From positions 1,054,001 to 1,118,000 of the forward strand of contig JAUPFP010000054.1 of the NCBI GenBank assembly GCA_036925085.1: a DNA stretch of 64,000 nucleotides, written 5' to 3'. The notes beneath the pieces are model-generated. The model saw only the letters and a list, made by a program, of their open reading frames with translations. It did no database searches and was not told the origin of the DNA. This document shows positions 4,004 through 50,736 of this stretch, in pieces (position 1 is the stretch's first letter; every line of letters starts with the position of its first letter). The position numbers were made by a program, and so were the translations under genes. This DNA comes from Brachycybe producta. Its lineage: Eukaryota > Arthropoda > Diplopoda > Playtdesmida > Andrognathidae.

Positions 4004-4704
4004 TCATTGGTTTCCTTTAGACTCTTCGTCTGAATTTGTTGTGGGCGCCGTCGGTGGAGTTTTCTTAATCGGCGTTCGTCTGTTATCGAGTCTTTCCAGC
4101 CTCATTTGTCTTCTCATGTCAAACATCACGTTCTGAAAACTAGCAACTCGCTTCTGTCCGCTTCCTTTTGGCTTCGCTACACCTTTTTTTTTCCGAAACA
4201 GAACAAAAAACCTGAATCAAGACTTCGATCATTTCTCAACACGCCGCCGAGTTCAGAGAGACGTTACCTGGCGTACGACGTGGAGTGATCTTCACAGTTG
4301 TAGTTTCATTGAACATATCGTCAAAGTCGAACGCAGTCCTCGGTTCATTACTAGAAAGTTAAAGAAAGGGTCAAAGGTCATTTTTAGTAAGCGCCTTTAA
4401 AGCTGTAACAGACGTACGAATCCTCTGTTTCGAGTGTTTCTTTTTCGTTTGAGTCGATCTCTTTTGCTTCAGGACTTGGTGCTCTTCGTCCAGGGCATTT
4501 CCATTCCAATTTCAGCTCTTTCTTCTCTTCTAATGCGTTGTATAATCTTATTATGTCGCCCGTAGACGATGGAATCCATTGTTTATCGATGGGTTCTGTC
4601 ACAAATCCGTACGTTTCTTCGTCGCTGCACGAAATTTTCCAATCGTTCTCAACGCTCTCATCCTTAAAAGGTTCGTTTTTTGATATTCCATCGATTGCCG
4701 ACAT
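4004..4704 (-). CDS. PAGR1: PAXIP1-associated glutamate-rich protein 1 (PA1)
   Basis: Three exons: 4418-4704, 4268-4350, 4004-4182, giving 182 residues with every join in frame. The family is a small nuclear subunit of the MLL3/MLL4 (KMT2C/D) H3K4 methyltransferase complex that binds PTIP. Seen in the sequence: an N-terminal DW-x-I-x-CSDEE segment, a W-I-P...I-x-RLYNAL helix, RRAPSPEA, the acidic FDFDD box at about residue 104, RRTP at the end of exon 2, and a basic C-terminal helix (MRRQMRLERL). These match the order in vertebrate PA1, but the vertebrate glutamate-rich N-terminus is shorter here. The start ATG (4704) opens the first conserved exon. The gene is divergent from KIF22 across about 700 bases. 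Its partner PAXIP1 is about 9 kb away on the same strand. Confidence 0.9.
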
Positions 4705-5411
4705 CGTTTATTGCATTTAGCAAAGAGAAAACGTAGAAAATTGTTATTTCTTAGTGTGAAAATCGTTTGTTATGCACGCCGCCATCTTTTTTTGACCGAT
4801 TCTGCTATTTTGTAATGGGGACGACACAGAAGTGTGAATCGCGAACATTATGGAAAGCTGTTTTGCTTTTTATCCGCGTTTTTACTGAATCCTCAAAATT
4901 GAATTCTATTCTGGATGTCCAGTAAAGCGCGTATGAAAAGTAAAAAAAAATTACCATTCTTACGCTGTGCTGTGAATCTAGGTGAATCTCGTACATGCTT
5001 TTCTTCTATGTCGTTCCCCTTGCAAAATTTGTGTAGAGAGCGCCACTTGTGGTCACGAATAATGTCCGGTGCTCGCGCGAGAGGGCGCTATCATTCCGAA
5101 CACTTTTAATGATTTTTTCTTATTGGTTCGTTTTCGAATTTTGATTATACGTCATTAGTGACGTCACTTTGTGCGCCATTTTTTGACAGTTGGCCGTTGT
5201 TTTTCTAGTTTGTGAAATTCTTTCATTTTTATCGCAAATTATCGGCTTTTTTGTGTGATTTATTCGCGCGTTTATCATCAAGTTGTCGTGCTTTCATTTA
5301 GGTGAGTGACATATAACTACTTTATGAGCGTTTAAGTCAAATTAAATGACTGTTAAGACGTTTTTTCGTTTAAAATTCGCTTAAAAGTCTTATGACTCGT
5401 AGGTTTTCAAG
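4705..5411. promoter_or_regulatory. Divergent promoter region PAGR1 / KIF22
   Basis: This 707-base interval separates two head-to-head genes. TGACGTCA (a perfect CRE/ATF palindrome) lies at 5159-5166, about 250 bases before the KIF22 start codon. A likely 5'UTR intron of KIF22 runs from GTGAGT at 5302 to the acceptor at 5402, leaving nine UTR bases before the ATG. A TATA box is not obvious. Confidence 0.5.
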
Positions 5412-8400
5412 ATGAGTGTCGAAAACCGTACAAGAGTCGCTGTTCGATGTCGACCGCTTGTCGGCATCGAGACGGACGTCGGTCCTTACAATTTTCTGAC
5501 CTGCGACAGCGAACAGAAGCAGGTTTGTTGGTTAACTTCTTAAATCTTCTCGAAAAGACAATCTAATCGTTCTCAATATGTAAAAAACAGATTGAACTAG
5601 ACAAGAAGCTGTTCAACTACGACTATGTTTTCGATTCGACTGCTACTCAGGCCGACGTTTACGATGGAGCTGTCACTAAACTTACTGAAAAGTTTCTTTC
5701 TGGTATCTTCGAATGGAATTCTCGTCATAGATTACGATCTCTCTTGAGATTTTGTTTTTAATTTTGTATTTTTTCAGGTTTGAATGCTTCGATCATAGCT
5801 TATGGACAGACCGGATCCGGTAAAACGCATACGATGGGAACGAACGATCGAGGCGAAGACGCCGGAATCATTCCGAGAACTCTACGGCAGATCTTTGAGT
5901 CGACGGACGCAGAAACAAATGTCGTCGTCAAAGTTGCGTTCCTCGAAGTGAGAGAGCTTAAGAGATTTCTCGATTATTCGAGTTCTGATTCTATGTTTTG
6001 GGTTTTTTTTAAAGGTTTACAACGAAGATGTTTACGATCTTTTGAAGGACGGATGTCCAAAGATCTCATTACGAGAAGATGTTCATTCGGTTAAGGTTGT
6101 CGGATGTCTTCAAATGTCGTAATTATAAGAAAGTTTAATGTGAATGGTTTTTTATATTTGAAGGCGAGAGAAGTTCTGGTTCAGTCGTACGAAGATGCGA
6201 TGGTTTGTCTTCTGGATGGAGTTCGGATTCGTAAAACCGGAGCGACGGCCATGAACACCTATTCGAGTCGTTCACATACAATATTTTCGGTGATTCTCGA
6301 GACGAACGAAACCAGTCGCTGTCAGATGATGTTAGTCGATCTTGCGGGATCGGAACCGGTCAAGAAGACCAAAACGGTTGGAAATAGGTTCAAAGAGGGT
6401 TAGTTAGTTAATACAAACGCGGATCTCTTTTTTTTGTAAAAAAAATTATGAAAAAGTTTATTTTTAAAGATATTTTCTAGAAAATTCTTTTTTGTCTAAT
6501 TTGCATAGAAATAACTAACAACCGTTCAAAATGTATTTCGATGATAAATTTTATTTCTTCTCTGTAGGTGTAAACATCAACAAGGGGCTTTTTGTTCTCG
6601 GATCGGTTGTAAATGCACTGAGTCGCGATAAAGGAAGTGGTTACATTCCTTATCGTGATTCAACGTTGACGAAACTACTAAAGAGTGAGTCTTTCACGTC
6701 TTCGGAGCTTGTTTTCATTAGTAACGTTTGTGTTCTCTTGCGTTTGTATTTCATTCAGATTGTCTTCAGGGAAACGGTGAACTCTTGATGATCGTCTGCA
6801 TCAGTCCTCTCGAAGAAAGCGTTCAGGAAACGACCAACAGTCTCAAGTTTGCCGAACGTGCTCTCGCGATCGAAGTGAAGCCGCACGTACAGTCGAGAGT
6901 TTCCGGTTCGGTCTAGAAATCGGAGCTGAAATGACGCTCATCTCTTGAAAAAGCTCATCTGACATGTATTCAATTTTAGATTCGTGGTCCGGACGCAAGA
7001 AGGCGGTCAGTTCGAGTGGTGTCGGTGGTTCGATTCAGACTTCGACTCCTTTTAGTACGATTCAACAGAAGCGTCCGTTTCTCGGCAGCTCTTCTAAATT
7101 TACTCCAATTCCTGCTTTTAATTTGGATTCTTCTCCGTCCGGTTCTTGCATTACGATGGATGAACCGATGTTCAAGAAACCGAGAACTCCCGAACGGCCC
7201 GTTTGTTCTTCCTTTCCAAAAGATCTTTTCAGTCCCCTCGTTAAAAACATCTGTTCGACTATCGAGAGTAGTATGGAACGTGTGGCCGATCGTCTCGTTT
7301 TAGGATCTCGTAACGTTATTAACACTCCCGTAAGAGAGTCAATTGTTGATGCCGTCGTACACAGAATCACGATTGCACGTCGTCACTTCGGACCTCCTGT
7401 CGGTTGTGATGGTGAGTTCTTGAACTTCGAAAGTCGGAAGGTCCACCCTCATCGTCCATCGTATCTTTTTTTCTCCCAGGTTCCGAGACTACAATCGACG
7501 ATTTCATGAGCATCCAATCCAAGAACGTTTATATTCCGCCACGTTCTCATTCTACGAGACTAGGTCATAATCTGACGATAGAATCGAAAGAGAACGTCTC
7601 CGAGGACTCGGAAAATATGACGCAGAGTTCCGTGATGGACGACACTGTCCTGTTGAGACGATCAACGCGTTCGAAAGTATTGAAGGAGAGCGTTCTTGTG
7701 AAGTCGGATCGGACTATGAACGGCTCTGTAAATTACAAACAAGAGTTGCCTCGAAGATTTTCGAGGCGTTCCACCGTCAAAGGCAAAGTTCGCACTTAAC
7801 ATATTCTTAGAACTTTTGCAATTTTCGAAGTCTTTGATTATTTTCTTATTCAAGAGTAAAATTAAGAAAAACTAGAAAGTATTTTAGAAACTAGAAGGGT
7901 AGCTCATTCTCTTATGAATATTTTTGAATTAATATCGTTCAAAATAAACTTTATTAGACAAAAATGTCAGCTTAAAGTTGGATCATTTTCAAAATGACAT
8001 AAAAAAAGGCTTCTTTTAAAAGATATCAACATGAAAACAACCTAAAGTGATTGTGCTACCCTTCTAGTTTCTAAAACACTTTCATGGTTTCTCTTTAAAA
8101 CTAACTTAAGAAAATTGAACTTTCTTCATCTTTGAAGGAAAAAGAGGAATTTATTTGCATTTTCTGTGGCGAAAATTCAGTTTTTACGTTTTTCTAATTG
8201 AATTTTCTTCAATTAGGTTCGTCAGTTTGTCATAACAGTTCTCTGAACGTTGAACAGTCGATTTTGATGACAAGTTCGAGACGGGACGTCCACACTGCCG
8301 ACATTCTAAACTTATTAAACAAAGCAAGCGCTAAAGAGCTACAACGTTTGCCTTGTGTTGGACCAAAAAGTGCCATCATCTTGTATAACTGGCGCATAAC

Positions 8401-8655
8401 GAACGGACCGTTTCGTGACGTACGGTTCATTTCAATTTCAGCTCTTTCGTCGTCATCTTATATCGTTGTCATTTTATATCTTTATAAACTTTTTATTTCC
8501 AGATTAACGAAGTTCGATCCATTCCCGGTCTTTTGGGGAGTTTCTTTGGTCGCTTCGTCGAGGTAAAGATCTGGTTAAAAATGTTCTTCTCGTAAAACAT
8601 CAGATTCTGACAGAATTTGTTTCAATTTCAGGCCAATATGTGTATCAGCGATTAA
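5412..8655 (+). CDS. KIF22: Kinesin-10 family chromokinesin KIF22 (Kid)
   Basis: Plus-end microtubule motor expected to bind chromosome arms and drive chromosome congression. Exons: 5412-5522, 5591-5702, 5778-5947, 6015 to about 6113, about 6169-6398, 6568-6684, 6759-6905, 6980-7411, 7480 to about 7790, 8217-8419, 8503-8562, 8632-8655. The motor domain has the P-loop GQTGSGKT at about residues 84-91, SSRSH (switch I), DLAGSE (switch II) and the neck-proximal NSLKFAERA. The middle is basic and low-complexity. The C-terminus has two helix-hairpin-helix motifs (LQRLPCVGPKSA and VRSIPGLLG), the DNA-binding signature that separates KIF22 from other kinesins. Two joins are uncertain: the one near 6107-6169, and the one into exon 8217, which needs a phase-1 donor I could not pin down. 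A family R element sits in that last intron. The 3' end faces B3GLCT only 104 bases away. Confidence 0.92.
7850..8110. repeat. Family R element in KIF22 intron
   Basis: Shows TTAGAAACTAGAAGGGTAGC on the left and CTACCCTTCTAGTTTCTAAA on the right. It occupies most of the intron before the helix-hairpin-helix exon. Confidence 0.7.
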
Positions 8656-8759
8656 GTTTCGACTGTTCCTACTTGGAAAAATTAAGGTACAGTGACGAAA
8701 TTTCTTCCTCGAACGTCATCATTTTTGTTCATATTTTTTGTCATTTATTGCTATCCTTT

Positions 8760-11700
8760 TTACAATTCATCTTTTTGAACGTTTTTTACGTGTTCACTTG
8801 CATCTTTCAACCATTTGTCGTAAGTTTCGTACGGATCGATCAGCCAGAATTTATGAAATGAAATCGGTTCTTGGTGTTTCAGAATCTCGGAGTTGTAATC
8901 GTCTGGTCGTGCCTTTTATTTGAGAAGAAAGAAACCCATATTTTTAAAATGTTAATTCGATGGTTAACGCTCTACAGACATTCCAGAAGTTGCACGTTGC
9001 CACGAGAAGTGGTCAAAACGCCAGGAAAATTCCTCGTTACCAAAGAACATATTAAAGAATATGCATAACTTTTTCTTAAAGCTCAAAGTTGTTTCCGAAG
9101 AAGCAAACTGTTGTTAGCAAAATGGACCGCTTAACATGGGTCCAACAAATTAGTCGCAATTCAAAAAAGTGTAAAATAAAAACCCGTTGGAATAGTACAA
9201 CGAAAAGACCTTAAAACCTGGCCACATCAATTCAAGAAGCGATTGCAACTTCAATTATTGTTCAAAACACAGTTTGAAGAGAGATTTGTTGTTAGAATCG
9301 AGGCACACGTACAAACTCTGGAGTGTTTCTCTGGGCATTTTTTTAGGGACTTTTCTCTTTCTTTCTCTTGTCACCTGATGGAAATTTGGATTGTGGGTTA
9401 TCTGAATCGAGAGTTGTTTGAGACACAGTCCAAGAAACATGTCGTCGGGTGTGTCCGCGCTCGGACATATGCAAACTCCGCTGTTGACGAGCCTCTCGAC
9501 TGCGTTCATACTGAAAACCATTCTGGAAATAATAATAACGTGTAATTTTGATAGAATTAAATCAGTTGTTTAAGATGTTTTCCTTAACTTTTTTGCGTTT
9601 CAAAAGAGAGAAATTGAAAGTGTCTTAGAAACTAGAACGGGTAGCTGATTCACTTAATAGGATTTCAAAATTAACTTTTTATATACCAGAAATTAAAATA
9701 CTTTAAGAAAAAAGGCTTATTTTGAAATTAAACTTCTGATTAATTTTAAATTATTAAAATTTACAATAAATAATTTGAGTAATAAATGTCTAAATAAATT
9801 AGTATAAATTTAAGAAAAAAATATCTGATCGAAGATGGTTTTAAACTGTAAACGCAACTCTAAACTGTGGTTATTCCGTTTTAAAATAAGTGTTTTATGT
9901 CTCTGAAAACGGCTTATCTTTATAAGCAGCCGGTATATCAACACGAAAATACTTATCGGCTAAAGTTCTAGTTTCTAACACTTTTAATTTCTCTTCAGTT
10001 TGAAATTCAGCTGTTCGTAAAACATCTTAAATGAATTAAAACCGATGTTTTCTTTAGTTTACCCTCCGCCTCCGGTGATGTAGTCGTAACCCCGTTGAGA
10101 GGCCGTCCTGAAGCCGTACCTTTCGCCAATAGCGACCGGTTGCGCTGCCGAGTAGCACGACAATAACCGTAGCAAACGTTGAACACTATTGTCGTGACGA
10201 CAACAAAATTGTTAGATCTCGTAGTAAGACCCTTCTAATTATTGGGGGGAGGGGTTTACCTCATTAAGGTGTCGTCATCTGCGATAACTATCCACGATTT
10301 TCTAGCCAGTGCTTTGTCTTTTGCAACATAATTCAAAATGCCGATTGTTTTAGCGCAATGTCCTTAAAAACATTCCAATAAAATTGAAATCAAATTTCAT
10401 TTCGGTAAGTTCCCACACGGAGCTTTCGTTTTTGCCTCTTTCCGTGTTCGGTATTCCGAGATCTACGTAATGTGGACCTTGTTCCGATCCATCGCTGAAC
10501 AGTTTGACGTTCGAACTGTTTCCCCAAGTATTGAGAATTATGGGAACTATTTCACATGGACGGATCGTAATTTTTTTTTAATGTGGATCGTTTACGGGAG
10601 GTTACGTTAAAATAGGAGTTCGTAATTTCGTACCTCTGTCGCCGTGGAATTTCGTACATGTTTTAATGGCAAAAAAGATATCTGATTGGAGAACTGGCCG
10701 ATTCTGTATTTTAACAAAATACAAAATCTTATCAGCAAAGGAATTTCTTAAGCTGGTTTTAAAGCTGTAAACGTTTCGCGTTATTCTGTCTTTCAGGTGC
10801 AAAAGTAAGAAAAATCTGAAAGTGTTTTAGAAACTAGAAGGGTAGCTGAATCACTTAAGACTATTTTCATGTTCATATATTTCAAATTAAGCTTTCTAAT
10901 GACAAAATATGTGCGATCATTTTCAAGTTTGCCATAAAAAGCTTATTTTGAGGGGATTGAGTTATTACCCTTCTAGTTTCTAAAACACTTTGAATTTTTT
11001 TTGCAATGCAGAATAACCAGAGTTTGAAAATTAGTTGTTAATTAGAAAAGGTTGGTTTTTTTAAGGGTTTATTCGACTCACACAAATCGGAATCTTTGAC
11101 GCTGTGAAATAAGTTGCGCATTTTGTCGAGTCTTTTTCGATACAAAATTCTGGAACGTTTGTCAGAACCGTTCCGTTTCCATCGTTCCAAATGAACTTTG
11201 CCAGTTCGTATTGTGGATCGATAGAAAAGTCGAGCTTATCTACAAAAGCTATGCGACGTGATTCCAACCTTACGAAAAAAATTAGGGATTTTTAAATATA
11301 GTGAAAACCGTATAACACGAAATATATTCTTGTTCTTTAAAATGTCTTTCTTTTTAACACGAAAAAAATATTCTAGGTCTTTTACATTTCGTGTTAAACG
11401 GTTTCTATTGAATATAAACAATAGAAATCGTTTAAAAAGAAAACGGATAACACAAAATATAATTTTGTTCCGGTTCTTTTGAATAACACAACAATTCTTT
11501 TAAGAAGAAAAAAAATTATTCCCAGTCTCTTCCATTTCGTGTTAAACGGTTTCCACTGTATAGAAATCCATAGGAAATCGAGTGTTGTACTTTTTAATCA
11601 ATGGTAGATTTAAGGCAAAACCGGCTGCGAAATCAGGATAAAGAAATGCCTGAGGATTGTCGTGAAAGGCAAAGTGGTGAATGATCGTTGCTTCTCGGTC

Positions 11701-12870
11701 TCGAATCCCTCTTCCGAGAAACCAATCCTGAAATTCGAGCTTTTTTGTATAAGTCTACGGACCAAAAAAATATACAGATTTACCGACGTTTAAATCACCT
11801 TTTTCTGATCGTAACGACTCAAAACATTAAAAAGCTTTTTGATGTCGGTCGCTGTTCCTTCTTGAGAAAAAAACACCCATTCTTTAGGCGCTTGCGATCG
11901 AATTAACCTGAAACATAATGTTATATTTTGAACGTTTTTTTGTTTATCACAGGATTTTTTTATTAGCATTCTTTGTTCACTTAGTAAATAGAGGAAAAAT
12001 GGTCCAAGAACCGATTTCTGGCCACGTTTCGTGAAGTAGTTTTATCGTAACCGACTGTGAAGAACCGTTAAGAGTTAATATCTTATTTGATTACAACTTT
12101 TGGTGTCTCGATACTTTATATTTCACTTGTTCTTCTAACTGTTCTTTTAGTTTTTGAGCGTTTTTAACGTGTCTTTCGTTGGACTGGCTCAAAATAACTA
12201 TTGTAATACCAAATTCACGACGAATATTCGAAGAATTGCCCACATTATCATCAGATGACGATGGCGAGATTAAAGCAGTTAGAAGAAAACCTGAAAAATA
12301 AACTTAAGACACTTAAGGTCGGTTTCACAAGGACCACTTTGTGGCGCCACAAAGTGGTCCTTGTGAAGCCGACCTTAATTTAAAATTATGTGGAGATTAT
12401 TCTCTTAAGGTGGTTTTAAGGTTTAAACACCTTTCGAATTCGGATTATTCTGTATTTCAGATGTAAAATGATGAGAAAATGTGTTTTAGAAATTAGAAAA
12501 AGCAACGGGGAATCATTTAAGGCTTATTTTCTTGTTTATATATTTTAAAATAAGCTCTTTTTATGATGATATTTTTAATTTTTTGTTTTTTAAAAGAAAG
12601 TTTATTTTGAAATATTATATTAATGTAAAAATACTCTTTATGTGATTGCGGTAAACCTTCTAGTTTCTAAAACACTTTCAAGTTTCACTCTCATTTTGCT
12701 TTCTTCTGATTAAGACAGAAATAATCAATAGTTTATAAAACCATCTTAACTACATTTTCTTATCCAGTTTTTATGTTAAATTAAAATTAGTATAATTAGT
12801 TTTTTTTTTTTTCGATCTCACCAAAGATAATTAAAATAAGATAGAAAACAAAAACAGAGAAATTCTTCAT
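8760..12870 (-). CDS. B3GLCT: Beta-1,3-glucosyltransferase of O-fucosylated thrombospondin repeats
   Basis: ER-lumen GT31 enzyme that adds glucose to O-linked fucose on thrombospondin type 1 repeats after POFUT2. Twelve exons: 12822-12870, 12115-12290, 11981-12081, 11799-11907, 11591-11727, 11082-11268, 10634-10703, 10436-10546, 10260-10362, 10063-10185, 9375-9522, 8760-8912; total 488 residues (human about 498). Residues 1-26 form a signal sequence (MKNFSVFVFYLILIIFG...). Also visible: EATIIHH and YPDFAAG, the donor-site DDD at about 342-344, GERYGF, TGGGG-MVFS, TPDDMFLG, the SFHKFW box, and a C-terminal KDEL ER-retrieval signal (vertebrates use REEL). Intron 8 has a GC donor (10363-10435). 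Introns 1, 6 and 10 carry family R copies; intron 1 also carries a 66-base palindrome. The exon 2 donor could alternatively lie four codons upstream. Confidence 0.95.
9590..10050. repeat. Family R element in B3GLCT intron 10
   Basis: Large copy within the intron 9523-10062. The left arm GAAAGTGTCTTAGAAACTAG is clear; the right arm (AAGTTCTAGTTTCTAACAC) is eroded. Confidence 0.65.
10735..11060. repeat. Family R element in B3GLCT intron 6
   Basis: Left arm TTAGAAACTAGAAGGGTAGC and right arm TACCCTTCTAGTTTCTAAAA both intact, about 90 bases apart, with outer CTTTCAGGTGCAAAA arm. It fills the intron 10704-11081. Confidence 0.75.
11290..11570. repeat. Repeat with AACACGAAA / TTTCGTGTTAAACGG motifs, copy 2
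   Basis: Lies in B3GLCT intron 5. AACACGAAAAAAATATTCTA and CATTTCGTGTTAAACGGTTT match the copy at 195-450; two or three direct units are present, hinting at a short tandem array. Confidence 0.5.
12313..12378. repeat. 66-base near-perfect palindrome (fold-back)
   Basis: Arms AAGGACCACTTTGTGGC and GCCACAAAGTGGTCCTT meet with no spacer; outer arms GGTCGG / CCGACC complete it. It lies in B3GLCT intron 1. The same arms bound a larger element at 43801-44197, so this is probably a collapsed copy. Confidence 0.75.
12400..12770. repeat. Family R element in B3GLCT intron 1
   Basis: Starts CTTAAGGTGGTTTTAAGG, passes TGTTTTAGAAATTAGAAAAAG and ends with CCTTCTAGTTTCTAAAACAC and a degenerated outer arm. 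Confidence 0.65.
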
Positions 12871-12970
12871 TGATGGGAATTAAAATTAAAGGAAGCGAAT
12901 TCCATTTGCAGAAAAATATAATATTAGTGGTTCCTTTAGTAACAGATAGATGGGGCAGGTAATCTTAAAC

Positions 12971-13190
12971 ACAGGCAAGTTGTGCTCAGCAGTAAAATTT
13001 TGTTTACTCCGCCCTTTTATGAGCGTCATCAATTTCTAATTGGTTTGTTACTTGGTCTGATGTCACATATGCTCCGCCCTTTTCAATTTCTAATTGGTTG
13101 CTATTTGGTCTGACGCTCATTAAAGGGCAGAGCCAAAGAAATTCTGAAGCTGTGTACAGCTGCCTGTGGTCACTGGGCACACTTGCCTGT
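12971..13190. mobile_element. Family M element with 9-bp target duplication
   Basis: 220-bp element bounded by inverted termini ACAGGCAAGT / ACTTGCCTGT and flanked by perfect direct repeats ATCTTAAAC at 12962-12970 and 13191-13199. The interior contains opposed CTCCGCCCTTTTATGAGCG-type blocks and no open frame of note. A 9-bp duplication is typical of Mutator-like elements, so it reads as a non-autonomous MULE-type element. Confidence 0.8.
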
Positions 13191-13199
13191 ATCTTAAAC

Positions 13200-13909: not shown

Positions 13910-16900
13910 TCAGTTTTGGATCGATTGTTGGATTTGGGCAAAGACAAACGACTCATAATCGACGTCCTGTCTCATCACTGCCGTTAGAATGAATTCCACA
14001 TTGTAGACTTCTGAAAGTAAAATTTCTTCTTTAGGAAAAGAAAAATCGTATTTGATCGAAAGCGACGACCAAAAACTTACTTATGTTTTTCTTAAATAAG
14101 TTAGTACAAAGATGAACGTCGTTGTCGCACGTAATCAAGATCAACCTCTGAGAATTCTAAAAAGGAAACCACATGAAGAGACGTCTAGCGAAGAACGATA
14201 TCAAAACTAAGAATGGGATACCTGGTTCTTTTCGATGAATTCGTTCGCCGATGGTCTCTTGGAAACGACCGTTCCACCGGCACACTCGATGATCTCTTTC
14301 AGGACGCTCGGACACGGTTTCACTCCGGGTGTCACATAAAAAGTAAAATCTTTGAAGAGTGTCCCTTTCCGCTTTTGTAACAGTGCCATTTTGACGTTAC
14401 ATCCAAAATGATTTTCATTCGGTACGTCGGTCAGTATGTACGGCGTTTCGTCTAAGATTCATTTAAAAGAAAAAAGGGGAACAACTGAATTTCATTAAAG
14501 CTGTTTCAAGATGAATAACTGATTTTCGAACTCTGTAGTTATTCTGCGTTTCAAAAGAGCAACACTAAACAGGAACTGAAAGTGTTTTAGAAACTAGAAC
14601 GGGTAATTGAATCATTTAATAGTATTTTTATGTTGATTTTTTTCAAAATAAGCTTTTTAGATGACAAAATTTTTAAATATTATCGGCTTAACGTTGGATT
14701 ATTTTCAAACTGCCATAAAAAGTTCATTCTGAAAGATATCAACATGAAAATAGCCTTAAGTGATTGAGCTACTCTTCCAGTTTCTAAAACACTTTCTAGT
14801 TTCTCGCCATTTTGCATCTGAAAGACAGAATAATCAGAGTTCGAAAGTCGATAAGACTGTAAAACCACAGTAAATTTATTGACGAACCAACTTTTAAAAC
14901 GAACAAATTACCAATGAAACGATTTTGCTTTGCACTTTCTAGTATCCAAGACTTAGTAACAACAAATTTGCAAACGCTGATGGCACAAAGGTACTTGACC
15001 GTACGGCACAGTGTGTCGGCCACCAAATGAGTACATTCCTTGTAAGTTTTAGCCACCAAACCACCCAATTCTTGAACTTTCTGTAAAAAAAAAAGATTCA
15101 AGTTCACTTTTAGAATCTGAGTGATGAAAACCGGAAACTTACTTTGGCCATTTCCGTTGTGCCTTTCATACCAGTGAACAAAACAATCGGTCGGTTGCTG
15201 TCATCCGGTGGAAATCGCGTTGTGATTGACACGTTTTCGTCGAGTTCGGGCGAACTTCTGTTTCTCTTGTGAACGTTGTTCGGTTCGTTATCCCCTAACT
15301 TTCTTTTACTTCGTTCTTGAATTAATTTCGTTAGTGCGTCGGGATTCGGAATAAATTTCTGTAATATGAAGCGAAGCAAATAACTTAACGTACACTAAGA
15401 GCTCTCGAGACACTCCAGTGCATGCACTCTGTAGTGTCTCTTAACCTCTATTAAAACATAAAACAGTGAAGAAAAAACCCGTAAACGTACTTTCCACGAC
15501 TCTTCCGACACTCGAATAGGAAAACGCCAAGCAGCTAACAAATATTCAAAAATCATTGGCATTAACGGTCAAGCGACTAAATCGATTGGCAAAAAAAAAA
15601 CACGATTTACCCATCAGCTGAGGTACGAGAGCGTAGTCGACTTTGAAAGGATTTGCAACGTTAAACTGTTGATATTTTGGTGCCGACGGCAAACGTAACG
15701 AATCGTAGTGTCCAAACAGAATGTCTTGAAGCCACTGAACGTTGACGCTTGGAATTTTCCACTCTCGTGCAGTTTCGTATTTATCTCCTTCGGACCTAAA
15801 GAGGAAAAAACGAAAAATAGATGAAAGTTTTTTCCGTTCTCTAATTTCGTTAGTTGTTGTTTGCCTTTTGCAGATGACTTTCGTGTTGCATTTACTCATG
15901 TATCCGGTGTATTTGGCTCCGGTAGAAGTGATCATGTATTTTAACCAAAGCCGTTCCTCTCCTTCGAAATTACTAACGGTGATGATTTCGTTCTTGCACG
16001 GTTTATCATCGGAAAACGGTGTTGGAAAATGAAGTGCCAACCACGGTGGAGACATTTTCTTCTGAATTAAGATGTCGTTGAGCCAATGTGCGGTTACACA
16101 ACGTTTTCCCTCTCTCATCGCCTTCGAAAATGAGAAAAAAAAGGAAAAGTGTTATGACGAAAACGTCTCGGTACGTGCGGAAATTTGTCTCGTAAACCTG
16201 TTGAACGATGGAGTTGCGTTGGTTATCACACATTATGTGTGTGCATTTTGCCGAGTAATCCGTTTCCACTTCGCCGCCATTATGCGAAATAATCTTCTTC
16301 CAGCTTTCCAGTTTGTCGATTGTCACCAATTTATCGTAATCGACAAAGTGAAAAATGCAGCCGAGAAGGCAGAGATCGGGAGGAACTGATAACGAAACGA
16401 GAATACCGATGAAATCGAGAAAATTACTTCGATGAAACGGTAGAGGAAAACGAACTTCTCGTCACTGGATCGTGTCCGTAAAACTGGACTCTAGGAACGG
16501 GAGTTGGATGACCGTTTCCCGGTGGCATCGCAAGACGAAAGTTTTGAGGTTTTCCTGCATTAACTCTTGGTGCCATCACAGGTTGCTGGCCATTATTGTT
16601 GTTGTTGTTTGTAATGTTACGAAGGGTACGTTGGTACTCAGCCGATTGTTCTACGGTTGTTGGTCCACTCTGAAATATGAAATAACGGGTGTTATTCGTA
16701 ACCAAGAAATCTTACTATGACATAAACACACCGGTTGTTGAGTGGCCGCAGGAGGTGGAACTGGAAGTCTGGGAACGGTAATCGGAGGTGGAGCTAGTTC
16801 AGTACTGTCCGGCATACGCTGAGACCCTTGCAGTCTGTTATTCAACAGATTAGCCAATGCTGTTTTTGTCTTCGGAGTGACCACTTGAGGTTGCATTTGA

Positions 16901-35531: not shown

Positions 35532-38500
35532 TTACTCCGATTTAGGAGTGTTCCGATTCATGGTGGGAATGTCGTCGTAATTGTTGCTGTTCTGAACGTG
35601 CAAAACGGCTCTGCGCACGTCTGCCGAATAAAGACGGCTGGAATCGGAGATGAATATCTGTTTGAAAAGGAATAGAATTGAAAAGACATCCTCTCATAGG
35701 TCTATGTATGGTATTTTTTTGTAACCTCTCGAACTCCGAAGTAATCCTTTGCTTTGACAAAACGTGTTTTAAGCAGAAACAGAAGAGCGAGGCAAACGTC
35801 TACAAAGGTCCTTTCCCTCCACTCGTGATACAATAGTTGGTCCCAAACAAAAAGCAATGCATTGTGGTTAACAGCACTCGCAAATCCCTTAAAGAAACAG
35901 AATTAAAACGGAAGTTAAGAGTTGCTCGAAGAAGCAAATGTTCGAACCTCTGCGATCCATTTTCGAACAAAGGCGGTCGTATCAGTTAAAATAGCGAGAC
36001 ACTCTTTTGGAATGTCATTTCGGGACTTCCCTTTTAATTTCACAAACATTTTATTCGCTTCGGATCTGTTTGCGTGAAGAGTTTGAGCCGGAAAGTCCTA
36101 AATATAGGGAAAAGATAAACGCCTGAAATTTTTAAATAACCATTTCGCGTATGTAATCAAAGGAAATTTTAATTCACAAAAATGTTTTAAGGTGTAAACT
36201 TCGGCTCTCATATTCCGTTTTTCCGGTACAAAAAAAAAGAGAAACCTGAATGTGTTATAGAAACTAGAAAAGTTGCTCAATCCTTTAAGGGAATTTTCAT
36301 GTTGATATCTTTCAAAATAAACTTTTTTATAGGCAAAAATTAAAAAATATCGTCTGCTTAAAATTGAATCATTTTCAAACTGACATAAAAATGTTTATTT
36401 TGAAAGATAAACAACATTAATAATATTCTTGATTGAGCTACCTTTCTAGTTTCTAAGACACGTTCAAGTATCTCTTCGCTTTGCACCTGAAAGATAGAAT
36501 AATCAGAGTTCAAGAGGCGCCGTTTACACGTTAAAATCAACAAAGCATCTAAACGGTGTTCAGAAATTCCTGTAGTTATATTTTTAGTCGGCTTTCGTGA
36601 CGTTCAACGTTAGAAAAAAACAACATTAAAGTTTGATAACATTTTTTCACCTTAGCGTTAATCCAGATATTGTTTTTCATTGCTTTTTGAACACTGTGAT
36701 AAAGATTGGAATCCCATTCTCTCCAGATTCGGATAACTTCTTCGGCCATCTTGAAGATACGTTCGGGAGTTGGGATACAATGACGAGTAATCAGCTCCAG
36801 AAACATGGCCAACTCCATCGCGTGCGCGTCTTCCGGTTTAGATAATACGGGAGGACTCCTCTTGCCATTCTTTTCTCGTACTTTTAATCCGTGCGTGTCG
36901 TTCTTCTCACCGATTCCTTTAACCGAATATCCGAACGTAAGTTGAATTGGAAAGACCCACAGAACAAGAACGGGATCGAACGACTTGTTGTAGACCTGAA
37001 GAACGTTTAAAACTCTTGCAGCTTCGATTTGTTTCTCTTCTGTGTTTTGCAGACGTAAAACTCGGTCGTAAGTCTGTGCGAGTAATCGGATCATAACTTT
37101 TTTAATATTTCATGTTTTGTGGTCAAGAAAATCTATGAGAACATTTTTAAGAAGCAAAATTAAGAAAAATTTTAGTGTTTTAGGAACTAGAAGAGTAATT
37201 CAAGTACTTAATGGTGTTTTCGTGTTGATATCTTTCAAAATAAGCTTTTTGTGAAGTTTGAAAATTACCGAACTTTAAGCAAACAATATTTTTTCATTTT
37301 TTTGTCTATAAAAAGTTTATTTTGAAAGATACCAATATTAAAAATACTGTTAAAGTGATTCGGTTACCATTCTAGTTTCTAACACTTTCAAGTTCTCATT
37401 AGTGTTGCTTTATTTATTCATACGCAATACGGTTTGTAACTAGAAGAGTAAACGACGTTTGCAAAGATAATTTTCACGATGATACCGTAGAAAATTTATC
37501 GACCTTTTTTTCTTCTTTTACTCTTCCGGTTTCGTATGAATCTTAAAATTCTTTCGGTACAATTGCTTAAAAAAAGCGTTCTCATAGTTTTTCTCTGATA
37601 ATTCATCTGCACCTCTTTGACTGCAGTGTCGATCTGACTCGAAACGAACGATCGAATCGCACCATTCACTACTAGATCCACTGATTGACGACGAACCGTT
37701 TTGATGAACTGTGACCTCCAGGAATCTTCTATCTCGCCGAGACTTCGAGAGAAATAAAGTGTGGTCACTCGTACGTTATTATTTAAACTTATTCCTTCTT
37801 TTATACGTTAATTCCTTTGTAAACTTGTCCTTCTCTTTCGTGAAGAAAAATTCTTTGAGAAGGAGAATCCTCAGCGGTGACGGTAATGAATAATTCTTAT
37901 CTCTAAATATTCTAAACAAGTGTTTTGTTCGTTGAGGTTCGTAACGGCAAACTTCGACCAATGCTTGACCCATAATGTCCGTTTCCTTATCCCACATTTC
38001 GATCTCTTTATCCCGTTCGCTGTCAAATTTCACCATTTTTTCTTTTGAACTTTGTTTCACCTGCGAATTCTACATAAAAGGTTTGGCCAAAATATGGATT
38101 TTTATTCAGTATTGAAAACAGAAAACTCCTCAATTATAGTCTCACTTTGCTATTTGCATCTTTTATTTGTCGATTGACACCGTCTTCGAAAACTGTTCTC
38201 GACTGCGTCACGAAATTACCCAATGGTGTCACACTGGAGTATTCCAAAAGCGGTTTCCCATAGTTTTGCTTCTCGATGATTCTCTCAAGGTGCACGCTCA
38301 TTCTCGCTTTTGTCTCTTCTAAAAGAGAATTCTTTTCCTGAGACGTCAACCGTTCCTTCGGGGAAAGTAACGGATTCGATTTAATATCGTTATCGTTAAA
38401 TGAAAAAAAGTGGACAGATTTCTAACCAATAAGTTTAAATTGTAGTCTGAATTCGGAAAGTGTTTGCTGACGTACGGAAACCCCAAAAGACTGTAAGTTA

Positions 38501-38742: not shown

Positions 38743-38752
38743 CACTGTTCGA

Positions 38753-40226
38753 TCAGTGACGTGACGACGAGTGAAGCAATTCGGGTCTGTATTCACCGTA
38801 GCAGTGTTTATACCGCGGATCTCTGTACGAATTTTCGTGTTGAACGCTCTGTTAGGGAGAAATCGAAACGGTTGCCGAATATAATCAAATTTGAGGTAAA
38901 ACTTTACAATTACAAAACTCATTAGAAAAAGTGTAAACGTTATTGGAACTCTGGTTATTATTTTTTTTTGAGAAGCAAAAGTAAGAGAAAATTGGAAGTG
39001 TTTTAGAAACTAGAAGGGTAACACAATCACTAAAGAGTATTTTCGTGTTGATATCTTTCAAAATAAACTTTTTATGTCTTAAGTTTGAAAATGATATTAT
39101 GTTAATTTTTGTCTATAAAAAGTTTATTTTGAACAATATCCACATTTCAATTTCTCTTCAGTATTACTATTTTAAAACACAGAATAAATTGTTTCGGATT
39201 TTTTTTTTCAGCGACATTTTGTGAAAATGATTTTTAAATTGCTTTATAAAGTTTATTTTGAAGGATATTCTTATTGAGAGTTTAGAAAATTCCCCTACCA
39301 TTCTAGTTTCTAACTATCTTCAAATTTATCATTAAAATTGCTTCTAAAACAATATTTAATTCTTCATATCATTTTCTAACTTCTAAACATTAAAACAATT
39401 CCAAAAAAGAACCTGTGAAGACGTTCGACACTTGACCAAACACAATTCGTAATGATCTTTGATCGTCGAGAAGAGTAAATGAAAGTTTCCACTCGCTCTG
39501 TCCAAAACTTCCTGAAGTAAAGACTTCTGTGTTTAAGAGAAAAAACAGTTCGTTATAACGAAGAAACGAGTGGATTATGATCACTCTTAAGAACTCAAAA
39601 GTGAATGTATAGAGACGATAAACCTTATCCGGATGAAGACAACAAGAAATACAATACTCGTAGACGCTGCAGCAATGATTTTGATGACAAGTGTCGCAAG
39701 AGTATCGTTTTGTGGTCACAGAATTCACGTCACAGCATCCGGAAGAAAGAACACCTTGTCTTAGACACACGTATCCTTTATCGTCGGCCAACAACACTTT
39801 GCCTTGAACAGAGTTTCGACAGTTGACGACAATCGAACGAGAAGAACCATAAGTCGGTTCCGAACTACGATCCTTCGAAGACGTTCGATTGTTGTTTTTG
39901 TCGTCGTCGTCGTTCTCGACGACGTCTTCTTCGACTTCGTTTGATTGCCAATGGAATGGTTTTCGAGAGAACGTAACGTCAACTTCTTCTGATCTGTCTT
40001 TGTCCTCCTTTTCGTTGAAACGAACCTGAAGAAGACAAAAAAAAAAAAACAAGGTTGAAAGTGTCGATGTTTGTTTACATGCGTTGTCATGACAACCATG
40101 CACGAGTCTCGGATACATCCACACCTGTTTCGTGACGCTGATGATGAAATAGACGACAGCAATTGTCAGAATGGTAAACAGAATTATTCTCGTCCTCAAT
40201 GTTCGCACGATTTTGCGAAACAACAT
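38753..40226 (-). CDS. SPRING1: SREBP regulating gene protein (SPRING)
   Basis: Golgi membrane protein that licenses site-1 protease and so SREBP processing. Four exons: 40125-40226, 39624-40025, 39413-39526, 38753-38848; 237 residues. One N-terminal membrane helix (about residues 14-30) follows a basic start, giving type II topology. The luminal domain has the cysteine-rich signature CRNSVQGK, GYVC, SSGCCDVN, CDTCHQNHCCSVYEYC, SCCL at about residues 110-165. Then come LLFSTIKDHYELCLVKCRTSSQ and the last-exon block SVQHENSYRDP...CYGEY, essentially the human motif. An acidic, low-complexity stretch (EEDVVENDDDDKNNN) between the helix and the Cys-rich domain is longer than in vertebrates. Intron 3 holds a family R copy. 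The gene is divergent from RNFT. Confidence 0.95.
38925..39360. repeat. Family R element(s) in SPRING1 intron 3
   Basis: TTTTAGAAACTAGAAGGGTA at the left; two right arms (near 39145 and 39300) imply a partial second copy. Confidence 0.6.
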
Positions 40227-41296: not shown

Positions 41297-43653
41297 ATGG
41301 CTGGTGAAAGATCGACGAATCGTGGTTCTGGAGGTAGATTTCCTTGGTCATCGACATTGCAGCCTCTTTTTGGAGCATCAGGTGTAGGAGGAGGAGGATC
41401 AAATACGGCTTCGACATCCAGATCGGTTCACCTTATTCCTCCGAGTCATAGTCCGTCTTCGAGAGGAATAAGAGACGATATTCAAGACGTAATACGTGGT
41501 CTCGGTCCTCTGGTCGAACAATCTCATAATCTGAGCCTCGGAACATGGTTACGACACAGCAACAACAACGGGGGAGGTGTAGGAAATAACGAACAGCGTG
41601 GAAGTCAGAATCCTTCGAGTTCTTCTGCCGTTCATACAGACGTTAGACCAGATGTGGTGGTCAGTATTGACAATGTGGGACTGGATGGTGGAGGTGGCGA
41701 CGGAGGAGGAGGAGGAAGTGGAGGTGGAGGATCGGACGATGGTTCGCAGGATTCGACGATGGGACAGTATGCCGAAGCTACGAGACATAGTCCGGAACTG
41801 AGAACGGCCATTGCTGTCATCGAGAAATATATGCCCTTCTTTCTCATTCTGTTGGCTAAACTAATATTCGATCATAAGTTGGGTACGGAAAAAAAAATCT
41901 TAAGAAGGAGAAAATGACAAGAAAAGTCTCCCGATTTCAATTTCTCGAGAAAAGAAACGTTCAATCAAACAAGTTTCTTTTATTTATTTCTCCAAAGGTA
42001 TTTTAGTTTTGTTCGGTTTAGTGATCACTTTTTTTCATGCAAATTCAGTCATCCGAAGAGAAGTAGGGAAACAGGTTCGTTTTAGTTCTCATTTCTTCTT
42101 TTGTTTCTTTCATAGCGTCGCTTTATTTCCGTTTTAATTTTTCTGTTTCATCAGGGAAAGCGAAGTGTCCGATGTCTTCTCTCGGTCATCGTAAATCTCC
42201 TCACCTGCATCTTTTTTCTGCTTTTCTTCGTGTTCGAGTCAGACAAGCTTTACTACAAGTAAAGGAAAAGTTTAGTTCGTTCGGAGTGGATCGATTTAAA
42301 TCATGATTTAATAACAAAAAAATTAGCAACAACATAAAAATGAATTGATTTAAATCACATTTTTATATTCTTTTTAAAATTTGTCGTTTTTCTTTTAAGT
42401 AAAAATGATAAAATGGGCAATTTTATGAAATTTTAAATAAATGCAACAAATCTTTACCCGATTTAAGTAAAAAAAATTATCGATTTAAATAGAAATAATT
42501 CGATTTAAGATTTTTCATGAACTGCTAATTTTGTTTTTTTTACCAAAATGACCATTCTCTTTTTCAGAGGATAAATAAAGAGATATTTGAAAGTGTTTTA
42601 GAAACTAGAAGGGTAGCTCAATCATTTAAGGGTATTTTCATGCGAGCGAGCTACCCTTCTAGTTTCTAAAACACTTTCCAATATCTCTTCATTTTGCACC
42701 TGAAAGATTGAATAATCATAGTTCGAACGGCCCCATTTTCACTCTAAAACCACCTAAAATATGAATCTGATTTAAATCCGCCCTGATCTTGTTCTATCGT
42801 TTCATTTCATAAAAAGATATAACGATTTCGTTTTTTCAGTCTCGTTTTCATGCCACCATTTACGGTCCATCCTCCATCTTTGTGGGATCTTCTTTTCGTA
42901 GTCGGAATCACCGATTTCGTTCTGAAGTTGATCACGGTCGTATGGAAGGCAATCGTCGTTGCTTTACCCGCTTGTATCCTTCCTTTTCAAAAGAAGGCAA
43001 CTTTTTCGTCAGATTTAAATCCGTTCTCTTATCGATTTTCTCGTTTAAATGTTTTTGGTTTCTTTTAGGGTAAATGTTATCTATTCATCGAACAGACGTC
43101 TCAAACATACAGATCTCTGATTCCGATCAGACCGTGGTTGGTATATCTCCTCGAGGCTTACGAGGGGGTCGGTAAATTGGTCGGAATCGTTCTGTGTGCT
43201 GCTTACATCATAGCCAAAGGAACTCACTTGATTCGTGGGTTCAAAGAATGGAGAATCGCACTTTCGAAACTCATGCAGAGCGTTGTCAGTACAAAAGTCC
43301 GCGTTAAGGTATCAAAGAATCGAGTGTTCGTTAATCGGCCCTTTTCTTTTTTAAGACTTACGGCTGTGTTCCGAGCCGAGAACAGATCGAAGCTTCCGGA
43401 AATATGTGTCCCATTTGTCAGGACTGCTTCAGACAACCAACTGTCTTGAATTGCAAGGTGGCGATTCTCGTTAAATTGTTAAATTTTCGTAACTTAGGTT
43501 GATTCGTTTGTTTTTTTGCAGCATATTTTCTGCGAAGAATGCGTTTCACTTTGGTTTGATCGTGAGAGAACGTGTCCCATGTGTAGGACACAAATCGCAG
43601 ACGATCCGACGTGGAGAGACGGTGCAACGTCTTTCTTTCTTCAATTGTTTTAA
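41297..43653 (+). CDS. RNFT: RING finger and transmembrane E3 ubiquitin ligase, RNFT1/RNFT2 type
   Basis: Multi-pass membrane E3 ligase; vertebrate RNFT1 acts in ER-associated degradation. Seven exons: 41297-41882, 41998-42074, 42155-42258, 42840-42996, 43069-43308, 43356-43457, 43522-43653; 465 residues. The N-terminal 170 residues are low-complexity (Ser, Gly, Asn), then [17 protein letters not shown] starts the conserved membrane region with about six hydrophobic segments ([50 protein letters not shown]). A C3HC4 RING follows at about 406-443 (CPIC...C-x-H-x2-C-x2-C...CPMC). It is equally distant by eye from RNFT1 and RNFT2. Intron 4 (42997-43068) needs a GC donor. Intron 3 contains a family R copy. 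Confidence 0.93.
42525..42770. repeat. Family R element, compact palindrome, RNFT intron 3
   Basis: TTAGAAACTAGAAGGGTAGC and GCTACCCTTCTAGTTTCTAA lie only about 30 bases apart, so nearly the whole element is a hairpin. This is the cleanest copy for defining the arm ends. Confidence 0.8.
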
Positions 43654-44381: not shown

Positions 44382-45610
44382 TTATTTTTTGCTCGTCTTT
44401 GTTGTGCGATCGAACAAAGTTTTCTTTTGTAGTCCGAGTTTTGCTTGAAAAATGGCTCCGTCGCCTTCGGTCGCTCTCTTGAAAATCAGAAAAAGAAACA
44501 TATTTTCATATTTTTAGTCTTTTGTTTTCTCTGAACCAAAAAAAAAAAAATTAAGACCTTATTAATTTCCATGTGCTGTTCGTAAGTGACTATCTCTTCC
44601 ATCACTTCACCGTCTCCTTTGATCAACCTTTCAAATTAAACAATTTCTTTTATTAAATATTGTTTTTCAGATGAAGGATTCAGTTTGTGCTTTTTATTTA
44701 ACCTGGTTCTTCCTGTATCCGGATCGTAAATCCTCCTCATGACACTCTGTTGTTTATCCCATTCGTCTTTCGTCATCGGTTTCATACTGTGCATTTGCAT
44801 CATCTTCGGATTCGGTCCGATCTCTTCTGTGATCAGAACCGGGTCAGTTTTAGATGAAAAATCGTTCATGATCGTCTTTCGTACTATACCTTCGCTCGCA
44901 TTCTTATTACTCGATTTCTTCTTTGAGTTTGCATCCAAATACGGAAACATTTGCAGTCCGTTTTCTTCTACGTCTTTCGTTTCGTTCTTTTCTGCTTCTT
45001 TTGGTTTCTTTATCCGCTTTGTCTTTGACTTATGACGTCTTTTCTTCGTACTCTTTGTATGCTTCGAACTCTTCTTTTTCCTGTTGTGAGATTTAAAATA
45101 AATTATGTTCGGTTAATGCAATGCGTTTCCTTTGCATGTTTTAGTTGACTTTTTAGTTTCGGGTTCTGAACTGCTACTACTGGAAGTGGATCTGGTTTGC
45201 TTTCGTTTTTTCACACTCTTCGTTCTACTCGTTTCTCGGCTCGACCTTTTCTTTGAATGACGACGATCGTCTTCAGAAGAACTCGAAGATGATGACGAAT
45301 CGGAGGAAGATGATGAAGAAGACGACGATGATGATGATGAGGAGGAAGAGGAAGTTGACCGGCTTCGTCTGTGCTTTTCCCGTTTCTTAGTAGATGCTCT
45401 CAGTTTTGCTTTTCCTTTATGGCCACTACTTGAAGACGACCTGTCACTTCGACGTCTGGATGAATCCCTCCTGTCCCTTGCTCTTGAATGGTCCTTGGTC
45501 CTTGCTTCATAGTGGTCCCTGACTCTGGCTTCTGAGTGGTCTTTAGCCCTAGACTCAGAGTGGTCCTTAACCCTTGTTTCCTTAAGAACACGTCGGCGTC
45601 CCTCATCCAT
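44382..45610 (-). CDS. ARL6IP4: ARL6-interacting protein 4 (SRp25-like)
   Basis: Nuclear-speckle, SR-like protein linked to splicing. Four exons: 45150-45610, 44703-45080, 44558-44627, 44382-44477; 334 residues. The N-terminal half is Arg/Ser/Lys-rich with five imperfect heptapeptide-like repeats (KDHSEAR) and a run of about 18 serines. The C-terminal quarter carries the family signature [49 protein letters not shown] and an [14 protein letters not shown] tail. That last domain makes the assignment; the RS half alone would not. The ATG at 45610 is the first in frame. Head to head with the aldolase 5'UTR exon. Confidence 0.9.
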
Positions 45611-47383: not shown

Positions 47384-47560
47384 CATCTGTAGACAGCTTC
47401 AGAATTTCTTTGGTTAAGCCCTTTTATGAGCGTAAGACCTAATATCAACCAATTAGAAATGAAAAGGGCGGGGCATCAGTAACAAACTAATTAGAAATTG
47501 ATGACGCCCATAAAAGGGCGGAGCCAAAGAAATCCTGAAGCTGTCTACAGATGCTTGTAA
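47384..47560. mobile_element. Family M element (decayed termini)
   Basis: ACATCTGTAGACAGCTTCAG and CTGAAGCTGTCTACAGATG pair; the outer ACAGGC ends have decayed to ACATAC / GCTTGT. Confidence 0.7.
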
Positions 47561-47569
47561 AACTACTAG

Positions 47570-47740
47570 AAACTATTAAGTTGTTTAGAAACTAGAAGGG
47601 TAGTTAGAGCTTTTAATTAAAATTTTATTTTAACATGAATTTGAGCTGACCCTTCTAGTTTGTAAAACATATTCAATTTTCTCATCATTTTGCATCTGAA
47701 AGACAGAATAATCTGAATTAAACGTAGCTTGATTTTTTTT
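47570..47740. repeat. Family R element (short)
   Basis: TTTAGAAACTAGAAGGGTAG and GACCCTTCTAGTTTGTAAAA about 60 bases apart. Confidence 0.65.
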
Positions 47741-48189
47741 TGTTTTCTGAAAATGCATTGAGGCTAGAATGACTATTTAATAGTCAAGGTCATAAGGGCA
47801 ATAAAGGTTTAATCAAATTTCTAAAAGTTTACAAACGGAAAACAAAATTTAGCGAATAAAAAGACGCAAAAGAAACGGGGATGAATAAAGGGGAGAAGGG
47901 GGTGAAAAAAAAAAATGAGGATAAAAATGGAGTTGTTTTTCGTCTCGTTTTATTTTATTACGCACCCAGTTGACCTTCAAAAAAAGTGAGAAGGGAGGTG
48001 GAAAGACAAGACAGACGAGTTTTTGTTTTCCCTTTCCTTCCTCCCCTCCCCCCCCCCCCCCTTGTCTCTATCTCCGCCCCAATTTCTTGTGGCATTGAAC
48101 GACCCAACTGTGAAATCTGTGTCAATGACCCACTTTTTAAAACACATCGTTATATCGTGACTTGTTAGTAGTCTTGTTATTAATGCTTC

Positions 48190-48715: not shown

Positions 48716-48740
48716 TTATTATTTCCGAAGGTTGAATACG

Positions 48741-50736
48741 ATGGCCCACTTCAATTACCTTTCACAAGAACTTCAGGATGAACTTAGTTCGATTGCTCAG
48801 GCGATCGTCGCTCCTGGAAAGGGAATCTTAGCTGCTGACGAGAGCACAGGTTGCAACAAAGACCGTTTCGTTTACAAAGATCTTCGGACGAATGATAAAT
48901 CTCCATTCCCCCCCCCCCCCCCCTCTTGTTTGTTTATAAAAAGCGACCATTGGAAAGCGTTTCGCCGGAATCGGTCTCGAGAACACGGAAGAGAACCGCC
49001 GTCTTTACAGACAGCTTCTGTTTACGGCCGACGATGCCGTCGCTCAGAACATCAGCGGAGTTATTCTTTACGAAGAGACTCTGTATCAGAAGACTGACGA
49101 TGGAACTCCCTTTGCTGAACTCCTGAAGAAGAAGGGAATTATTCCCGGAATCAAGGTGGACAAGGGTGTTGTCACTCTTCAGGGAACGGACGGCGAATCT
49201 ACCACCCAAGGACTTGACGGATTGGCTGAACGATGCGCAAAGTACAAGAAGGACGGATGCCAATTTGCGAAGTGGCGTTGCGTTCTTAAAATCGGAAAGG
49301 ATACTCCTTCACCGCTGGCCATCCTCGAGAATGCCAACGTGCTCGCACGTTACGCCACCATTTGCCAGACGGTGCGTCTTCTTGAACAGCTGATTTTATA
49401 AACACTTTGGTGTTTACTTTTTGGCTTAAAAAGCGTTTCTATTGTTTTTCTTCTTTCTTTTTAGAACGGTCTTGTACCAATCGTCGAACCAGAAGTTCTT
49501 CCAGACGGCGACCACGACTTGGAACGTGCTCAGAAGGTGACCGAGAAGGTTTTGGGAGCCGTCTACAAGGCTCTGAACGATCATCACGTCTACTTGGAGG
49601 GAACTCTGTTGAAACCGAACATGGTGACGGCCGGACAGAGCAGCACTAAGACTTACTCTCACGCCGAAAACGCGAGAGCCACCGTTCAGGCTCTGCAGAG
49701 GACTGTGCCTCCAGCAGTCGCTGGTAACCTTTTTCGCCCTCCTCGCGGACGTATTGAGATCAAACGGCACTCACTTTTGGCTTTTTTCGTCATTTAGGAG
49801 TGACATTCTTGTCCGGTGGTCAATCAGAGGAAGACGCATCTCTGAATCTGAACGCCATCAATCAACACAAAGGTCGTAAGCCGTGGGCTCTGACTTTCTC
49901 GTACGGACGCGCTCTTCAGGCTAGTGTGTTGAAGGCCTGGGGTGGCAAACCGGAGAACGTGAAAGCCGGTCAAGATGAGCTGCAGAAGAGAGCAAAGGTA
50001 ACGAAATGGAGCTCCCGAAATCAAAAACAGGAAATTTGGTTGTTTAGAATTTGTGTGTTCACGTAGCGTTAGCGTCTAATTTTTGCTTTTGTTTAGAATA
50101 TTTCGAATTTGCATCTTGTTTTTTTGTTTTTAGTTTTGTTTTGATTTTTTTATGCTTTCGTAGGCAAACGGTTTGGCCTGTCAGGCCTTGTACACTTCCG
50201 GATGCGTTTCTAGTGCTGCTGCCGTCCAGTCCAATTACGTCAAATCGCACGCTTACTAGAGATTTGTGTCTTCCCGTTCCAAAAACAAAAACCCTTATCC
50301 TGCTTGTTCCGTGTTATGCATTTACTCATTATGGTAGTTAAAAAAATGAAAAAAATTTACATATTCATAATTTCGGTTAATTTAATGGTGGCTTCAATTG
50401 AAAATATTTAAATATCCTATTGAATGAACTAAGTTACCCTTCTAGTTTCAAAGACACTTTTCAAGTTTCTCTTTATTTTTCACCTGAACACAAATAACCT
50501 TTGAAACCACCTTAAGTTGACCAGAAATGTAGTTGCTGCATGCATAATTTATTAATTCCGTTGAAATTTTCAGTTTCTTTTAAATCGAAATTTAAAATTA
50601 ATTGAAATCTTTTTCTTTAAATTTTCAACTTTTTATTTTTCAGGCTAATGGTGACGCTTCTTTGGGACAATACACCGGTGGCCTCAGTGGTGCCGCAGCT
50701 GCCGAAGGTCTCTTCATTAAAGATCACGCATACTAA
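48741..50736 (+). CDS. ALDO: Class I fructose-bisphosphate aldolase with two alternative last exons
   Basis: Glycolytic enzyme cleaving fructose-1,6-bisphosphate. Common exons 48741-48849, 48944-49371, 49465-49723, 49798-49997 encode 332 residues; either of two terminal exons, 50164-50259 (31 residues) or 50644-50736 (30 residues), completes a 363- or 362-residue protein, the usual class I size. Catalytic features: [12 protein letters not shown] (187-189), Schiff-base Lys in [10 protein letters not shown] at about 229, LSGGQSEE, and FSYGRALQ. Both last exons begin in phase 0 with Ala-Asn and end with His-Ala-Tyr, preserving the C-terminal tyrosine needed for full activity; their middles differ ([11 protein letters not shown] versus [11 protein letters not shown]). 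The first intron splits what is usually a glycine codon and yields ADEST-A-TIGKR. Codon use is richer in G/C-ending codons than in neighbours, as expected for high expression. Confidence 0.95.
50395..50520. repeat. Family R fragment between alternative aldolase exons
   Basis: Right arm TTACCCTTCTAGTTTCAAAG with outer CACCTGAACAC; the left arm is missing. Confidence 0.5.

Follow-up and report, generated by a model that had tools for sequence, protein, structure and literature searches.

Relatives of human 16p11.2 and 12q24 genes on one contig of the millipede Brachycybe producta

In the genome of the millipede Brachycybe producta, 47 kb contain PAGR1, KIF22, HIRIP3 and a single aldolase, with KSR, SPRING1, RNFT and ARL6IP4 in between, which raises the question of why relatives of genes from two human regions, 16p11.2 and 12q24, lie side by side in an arthropod. 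The stretch of DNA analysed here (the window, 64 kb) corresponds to C54:1054001-1118000 of an assembly of 295.3 Mb in 442 contigs, contig C54 itself comprising 1,274,609 bases. An earlier note on this DNA had read it as one ancestral animal block that was later split in vertebrates. That interpretation is partly supported, being right in direction and too narrow: a single block still explains the data best, but its human counterparts extend beyond 16p11.2 and 12q24 to chromosome 17 and 22q. The window is very probably a segment of a single ancestral bilaterian linkage group, and one in which rearrangement has been slow.

Gene content of the window

Fourteen gene families were worked with in the 64 kb. 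The gene finder chained neighbouring genes, and therefore its exon-level output alone was used; the names below are assignments from profile matches and best-match evidence, and coordinates are positions within the window. Gene content, order and orientation are as follows.

4022..4704, minus strand: PAGR1 (PF15364, E 5.7e-9, over the cut-off; start codon and last exon seen)
5412..8562, plus strand: KIF22 (PF00225, 1.9e-74; C-terminal helix-hairpin-helix against 2edu; draft exons, last exon unsure)
8798..11754, minus strand: Fringe-like glycosyltransferase, no human counterpart given (PF02434, 6.1e-15; draft exons)
14222..21266, minus strand: PTIP/PAXIP1-like gene with multiple BRCT domains and an extended glutamine-rich region (PF00533, 5 stretches, 3.9e-39)
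22768..28457, plus strand: KSR (SAM_KSR1_N, 4.9e-27; KSR chains above RAF in the matches listed)
31290..33390, minus strand: putative HIRIP3 (corrected C-terminal exon and N-terminal exons; 6m2m, 9.3e-4; no Pfam match)
35726..38315, minus strand: gene with a weak TBC-like domain, no human counterpart given (PF00566, 0.0015, under the cut-off)
38761..40226, minus strand: SPRING1 (PF10218, 2.6e-43; start codon seen)
41297..43653, plus strand: RNFT1/2-like RING protein (general RING families, best 2.8e-9; start codon and end read)
44558..45610, minus strand: ARL6IP4 / SR-25 (PF10500, 2.8e-33; approximate 3' end)
48741..50736, plus strand: class I fructose-bisphosphate aldolase (PF00274, 2.9e-181; stop codon 50734-50736)
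52072..53974, minus strand: NCBP3 (PF10309, 4.5e-16)
54654..59349, plus strand: SMPD4 (PF14724, 1.1e-89; draft exons)
59728..63293, minus strand: weakly matched TLD-domain gene, perhaps MEAK7 (PF07534, 0.005, under the cut-off)

A small cysteine-rich (knottin-like) peptide frame without a Pfam match is also present on the plus strand at 2174-2299.

The eight names on which the earlier note was built (PAGR1, KIF22, HIRIP3, aldolase, KSR, RNFT, SPRING1 and ARL6IP4) all find support, which is less firm for HIRIP3 and RNFT. The KIF22 candidate combines a kinesin motor with a C-terminal helix-hairpin-helix, whose top solved-structure match is human KIF22 (2edu, 3.3e-7) and whose Pfam profile, PF12836, scores under its cut-off. 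The motor alone matches KIF4 best, and no KIF22 occurs among the best 60 of 158 matches in the motor search, so that the name, which is supported, is carried by the C-terminal domain. KSR ranks above every RAF among the best 60 of 653 matches. The RNFT assignment was made from the layout of the protein, which we take to be that of the RNFT1/2 family, because Pfam shows general RING families; similarly, the name PAXIP1 for the PTIP-like gene is suggested by architecture. Within this last gene, 16654-20160 encodes a very long glutamine-rich stretch of 15-48 bp tandem units that is open in several frames.

HIRIP3 is the least secure of the names. It has no Pfam match, and a protein search returned no match with either version of the C-terminus, corrected or not. 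After the last exon (31290-31406) had been re-spliced by hand, it matched chain 6m2m_M (E 9.3e-4), which carries the name 'Expressed protein' and which we take to be rice Chz1; the assignment draws on this corrected exon, the 6m2m match and motifs compared with human HIRIP3. The acidic part of the gene contains a 222-bp tandem duplication whose copies are 91% alike (32398-32842).

The aldolase is a single-copy gene, the four exon matches of the family in the genome together making up one gene; among the families with several human members, copy number was checked for this one alone. Its top structure match, 1fba, is labelled just 'fructose 1,6-bisphosphate aldolase' and is presumably the Drosophila enzyme. 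Arthropods, a heavily sampled group, account for 33 of the 38 organism-named entries among the 120 matches listed; the non-arthropod relatives among them are Camelina, Toxocara, Ridgeia, Patella and Owenia, with Camelina at the top by E-value (66% identity). In a tree that holds no vertebrate sequence, the gene pairs with an environmental sequence, outside a supported chelicerate group.

Placement against the human genome

Most human positions and region sizes used here are background values rather than those of a curated map. We take SPRING1, ARL6IP4, KSR2 and RNFT2 to lie in 12q24, KSR1 and ALDOC in 17q11.2, RNFT1 in 17q23, ALDOB in 9q31, PTIP/PAXIP1 in 7q36, NCBP3 in 17p13 and SMPD4 in 2q21. 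PMC8328201 places KIF22, ALDOA, HIRIP3 and PAGR1 in human 16p11.2. For KSR, RNFT and aldolase a choice among two to three human paralogues is available, and the random draws described here allow for it.

In these draws, the 14 families with their human paralogues were placed on 19,500 genes, gene clustering being ignored. The shared placement proposed by the earlier note proved better than chance: a 29-gene interval anywhere in human that holds four of the 14 families arose in 12 of 100,000 draws. Wider intervals gave 41/60,000 (60 genes) and 3,466/60,000 (300 genes), and in 555 of 200,000 draws one or more of the 13 neighbouring pairs came to be adjacent on the human side. A chance origin of the 16p11.2 grouping is therefore unlikely. 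When both regions are considered together, 16p11.2 or 12q24 contains a member of 8 of the 14 families against 0.54 expected (P 7.5e-9, or 1.5e-6 with three human members assumed for each family), a value to be read with the fact that the regions were picked after the genes had been seen. By these background positions, four of the 14 families also have a member on chromosome 17 (KSR1, ALDOC, RNFT1 and NCBP3; P 0.039), and none of the 14 has one on 22q. For the four regions together (12q24, 16p11.2, 17 and 22q), P is 0.0089 with three members per family, and the remaining 5/14 families have no member in these regions or no assigned human counterpart.

The flanks were read over 200 kb on the left side of the window and 80 kb on the right side, and yielded 30 families, some of them named by eye. 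The enrichment in the two regions that the earlier note would predict there is present at 4/30 against 1.31 expected (FET (FUS), RNF20/40, VPS33A and BICDL; P 0.039, rising to 0.17 when each family is assigned three members). Chromosome 17 or 22q is the stronger partner, with 15/30 families (11/30 for chromosome 17 and 8/30 for 22q, by the same background positions). The four regions jointly take in 18 of the 30 families against 5.7 expected (P 4.5e-7, or 7.1e-4 with three members per family), the set of four having been picked after the flanks were read. A shorter list of 15 families was obtained by dropping most multi-member and weakly called ones; PYURF and AP beta (identified by eye) as well as FET and SGSM (from general domain matches alone) were retained in it. 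This list gives 3/15 for the two regions (P 0.015) and 12/15 for the four (P 4.3e-8). Enrichment thus reaches flanks that had not been selected for it, with the four regions named post hoc and a two-region P of 0.039 or 0.17. Orthologues on this contig concentrate on few human chromosomes beyond the expectation of random placement, given these human positions.

Among the flank families, the names VPS33A, RNF20/40 and RAD51C were checked against solved structures, and further identities include PIGS, UFD1, MYBBP1A, PIGL and OSBP; the calls for VMP1, CENPV, a DHHC gene and BICDL lie under the Pfam cut-off. At C54:909890-988750, on the minus strand, a single cytochrome P450 exon is present eleven times, in two groups between which UFD1 and metalloproteinase genes are situated.

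Close neighbours

Several genes of the window lie in tight pairs. SPRING1 and RNFT are adjacent and head to head, with start codons 1,071 bp apart, and PAGR1 and KIF22 are likewise head to head, with 708 bp between start codons; in human we take SPRING1 and RNFT2 to be head to head as well, but not PAGR1 and KIF22. In adjacency, orientation and spacing, the SPRING1-RNFT pair is a candidate for the kind of conserved microsynteny pair that has a shared promoter. Other pairs that we take to be neighbours in human also recur on C54: ALDOC beside PIGS (17q11.2), ALDOB beside RNF20 (9q31), ALDOA with RNF40 (16p11.2), PIGL beside CENPV (17p11.2), RNFT1 near VMP1 (17q23) and SPRING1 beside RNFT2 (12q24). 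Such recurring pairs fit the remains of a single pre-duplication chromosome after two vertebrate doublings. In cattle, PMC8650139 lists SPRING1, RNFT2, FBXW8 and MED13L near one SNP. NCBP3 and SMPD4 form a divergent pair (52072-54698), with 680 bp from the NCBP3 start codon to the first SMPD4 exon seen.

Origin of the block

Descent from one chromosome and two rounds of doubling are inferred here, as is any promoter region in common. Genes carried by one chromosome in the protostome-deuterostome ancestor would have remained together in the arthropod because interchromosomal translocations seldom become fixed. In the vertebrate line the ancestral chromosome would have doubled twice, and its copies would have lost different genes and been partly rearranged, so that orthologues would now lie on human 12q24, 16p11.2, 17 and 22q. 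Since human counterparts are spread over at least four regions, the 'split' of the earlier note is better described as duplication with uneven loss. Most of the local closeness would reflect common chromosome ancestry, and the rarity with which chromosomes exchange pieces is most likely all that keeps the genes together; tight pairs such as SPRING1-RNFT may additionally be held by a common promoter region. The RR chitin-binding cuticle family, an arthropod marker, gave 33 matches, and these speak, with the aldolase relatives, against a sponge or cnidarian host. As the host is an arthropod, the linkage reaches back to the protostome-deuterostome ancestor; the block is thus ancient, as had been claimed, but its age is shown just to the bilaterian ancestor rather than for animals as a whole.

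We take 12q24, 16p11.2, 17 and 22q to constitute a paralogon of the two vertebrate genome doublings (2R). KSR1/2, RNFT1/2, ALDOA/B/C, RNF20/40 and FUS/TAF15/EWSR1 each have a predicted relative on C54, in agreement with such a paralogon. The contig differs from it with regard to ATXN2 and SETD1, families with 12q24/16p11.2 ohnologue pairs of like kind in human: SETD1 lies on contig C6 and ATXN2 on contig C124, and neither is on C54. This weakens the case for a compact ancestral block, and is compatible with one chromosome because the contigs are unplaced. PMC12730607 assigns ATXN2 to 12q24.12 and ATXN2L to 16p11.2.

Linkage groups of this kind are well described. Early animals are reported to combine high macrosynteny with low microsynteny (PMC10719294), linkage groups are traced as far as cnidarians and sponges (PMC10719294, PMC10232365), and groups that chordates have in common with a protostome, intact in scallop, are well documented (PMC7269912). 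The window resembles the bilaterian-cnidarian-sponge and chordate groups in that linkage is kept irrespective of order (PMC10232365, PMC7269912); it differs in resting on one arthropod contig, and the comparison is with such groups in general. No description of this block in an invertebrate was found among the papers listed from the literature searched, which omits most subscription papers. Conserved macrosynteny being already known, what is new here is a further example with a few tight pairs. For tracing where the human 16p11.2 deletion interval, 12q24, 17 and 22q come from, it offers an anchor on the arthropod side; constraint across animals can be tested on its close pairs, namely SPRING1-RNFT, PIGL with CENPV, and aldolase with PIGS and RNF20/40.

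The alternative that survives best, although we consider it improbable, is a functional cluster in which selection holds PAGR1, PTIP, KIF22, HIRIP3 and their neighbours together via common regulation in dividing cells. PTIP is a known partner of PAGR1 in the same histone methyltransferase complex, and in the window the two genes, PAGR1 and the PTIP-like one, together span about 17 kb (4022-21266); their human counterparts, however, are on different chromosomes, PTIP at 7q36, so that this linkage has not been kept. PMC11211608 describes PAGR1 as a member of that complex. PMC8328201 gives KIF22, ALDOA, HIRIP3, PAGR1 and MAZ as the 16p11.2 genes that progenitors of the human fetal cortex express, and the window's four 16p11.2 genes are four of these five (P 2.1e-4 for a blind draw from 29). 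The overlap was noticed post hoc, and for old, broadly expressed genes both an arthropod orthologue and activity in progenitors are to be expected. The head-to-head arrangement of both SPRING1-RNFT and PAGR1-KIF22 would also suit common regulation, but aldolase, SMPD4, KSR and SPRING1 have no evident common function. We treat the head-to-head pairs, the closeness of PAGR1 and PTIP and the progenitor overlap as leads, not as evidence of selection. It is improbable that PAGR1, KIF22, HIRIP3 and aldolase, along with PTIP, represent an ancient dividing-cell and chromatin neighbourhood kept in arthropods and in human 16p11.2 by common control.

Chance, aided by free choice among paralogues and human regions, is very improbable as an account of the whole. 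Three of the eight matches do come from families with two to three human members, the regions were chosen after the genes had been seen, and the two regions are weakly enriched in the flanks; yet the scan of every 29-gene interval allowed for paralogues, and so small a fraction of draws reached the observed grouping. Assembly error or foreign DNA can be practically dismissed, given that a single contig of 1.27 Mb carries the window together with 280 kb of its flanks, and that one dispersed repeat family is common to both.

This repeat family is A+T-rich and is found across the window and flanks (e.g., 14701-14838 and 47384-47605). One 18-mer occurs in 62 copies in the 344 kb of window and flanks, and 18-mers with at least 4 copies cover 4.7% of the window, including part of the PTIP repeat.
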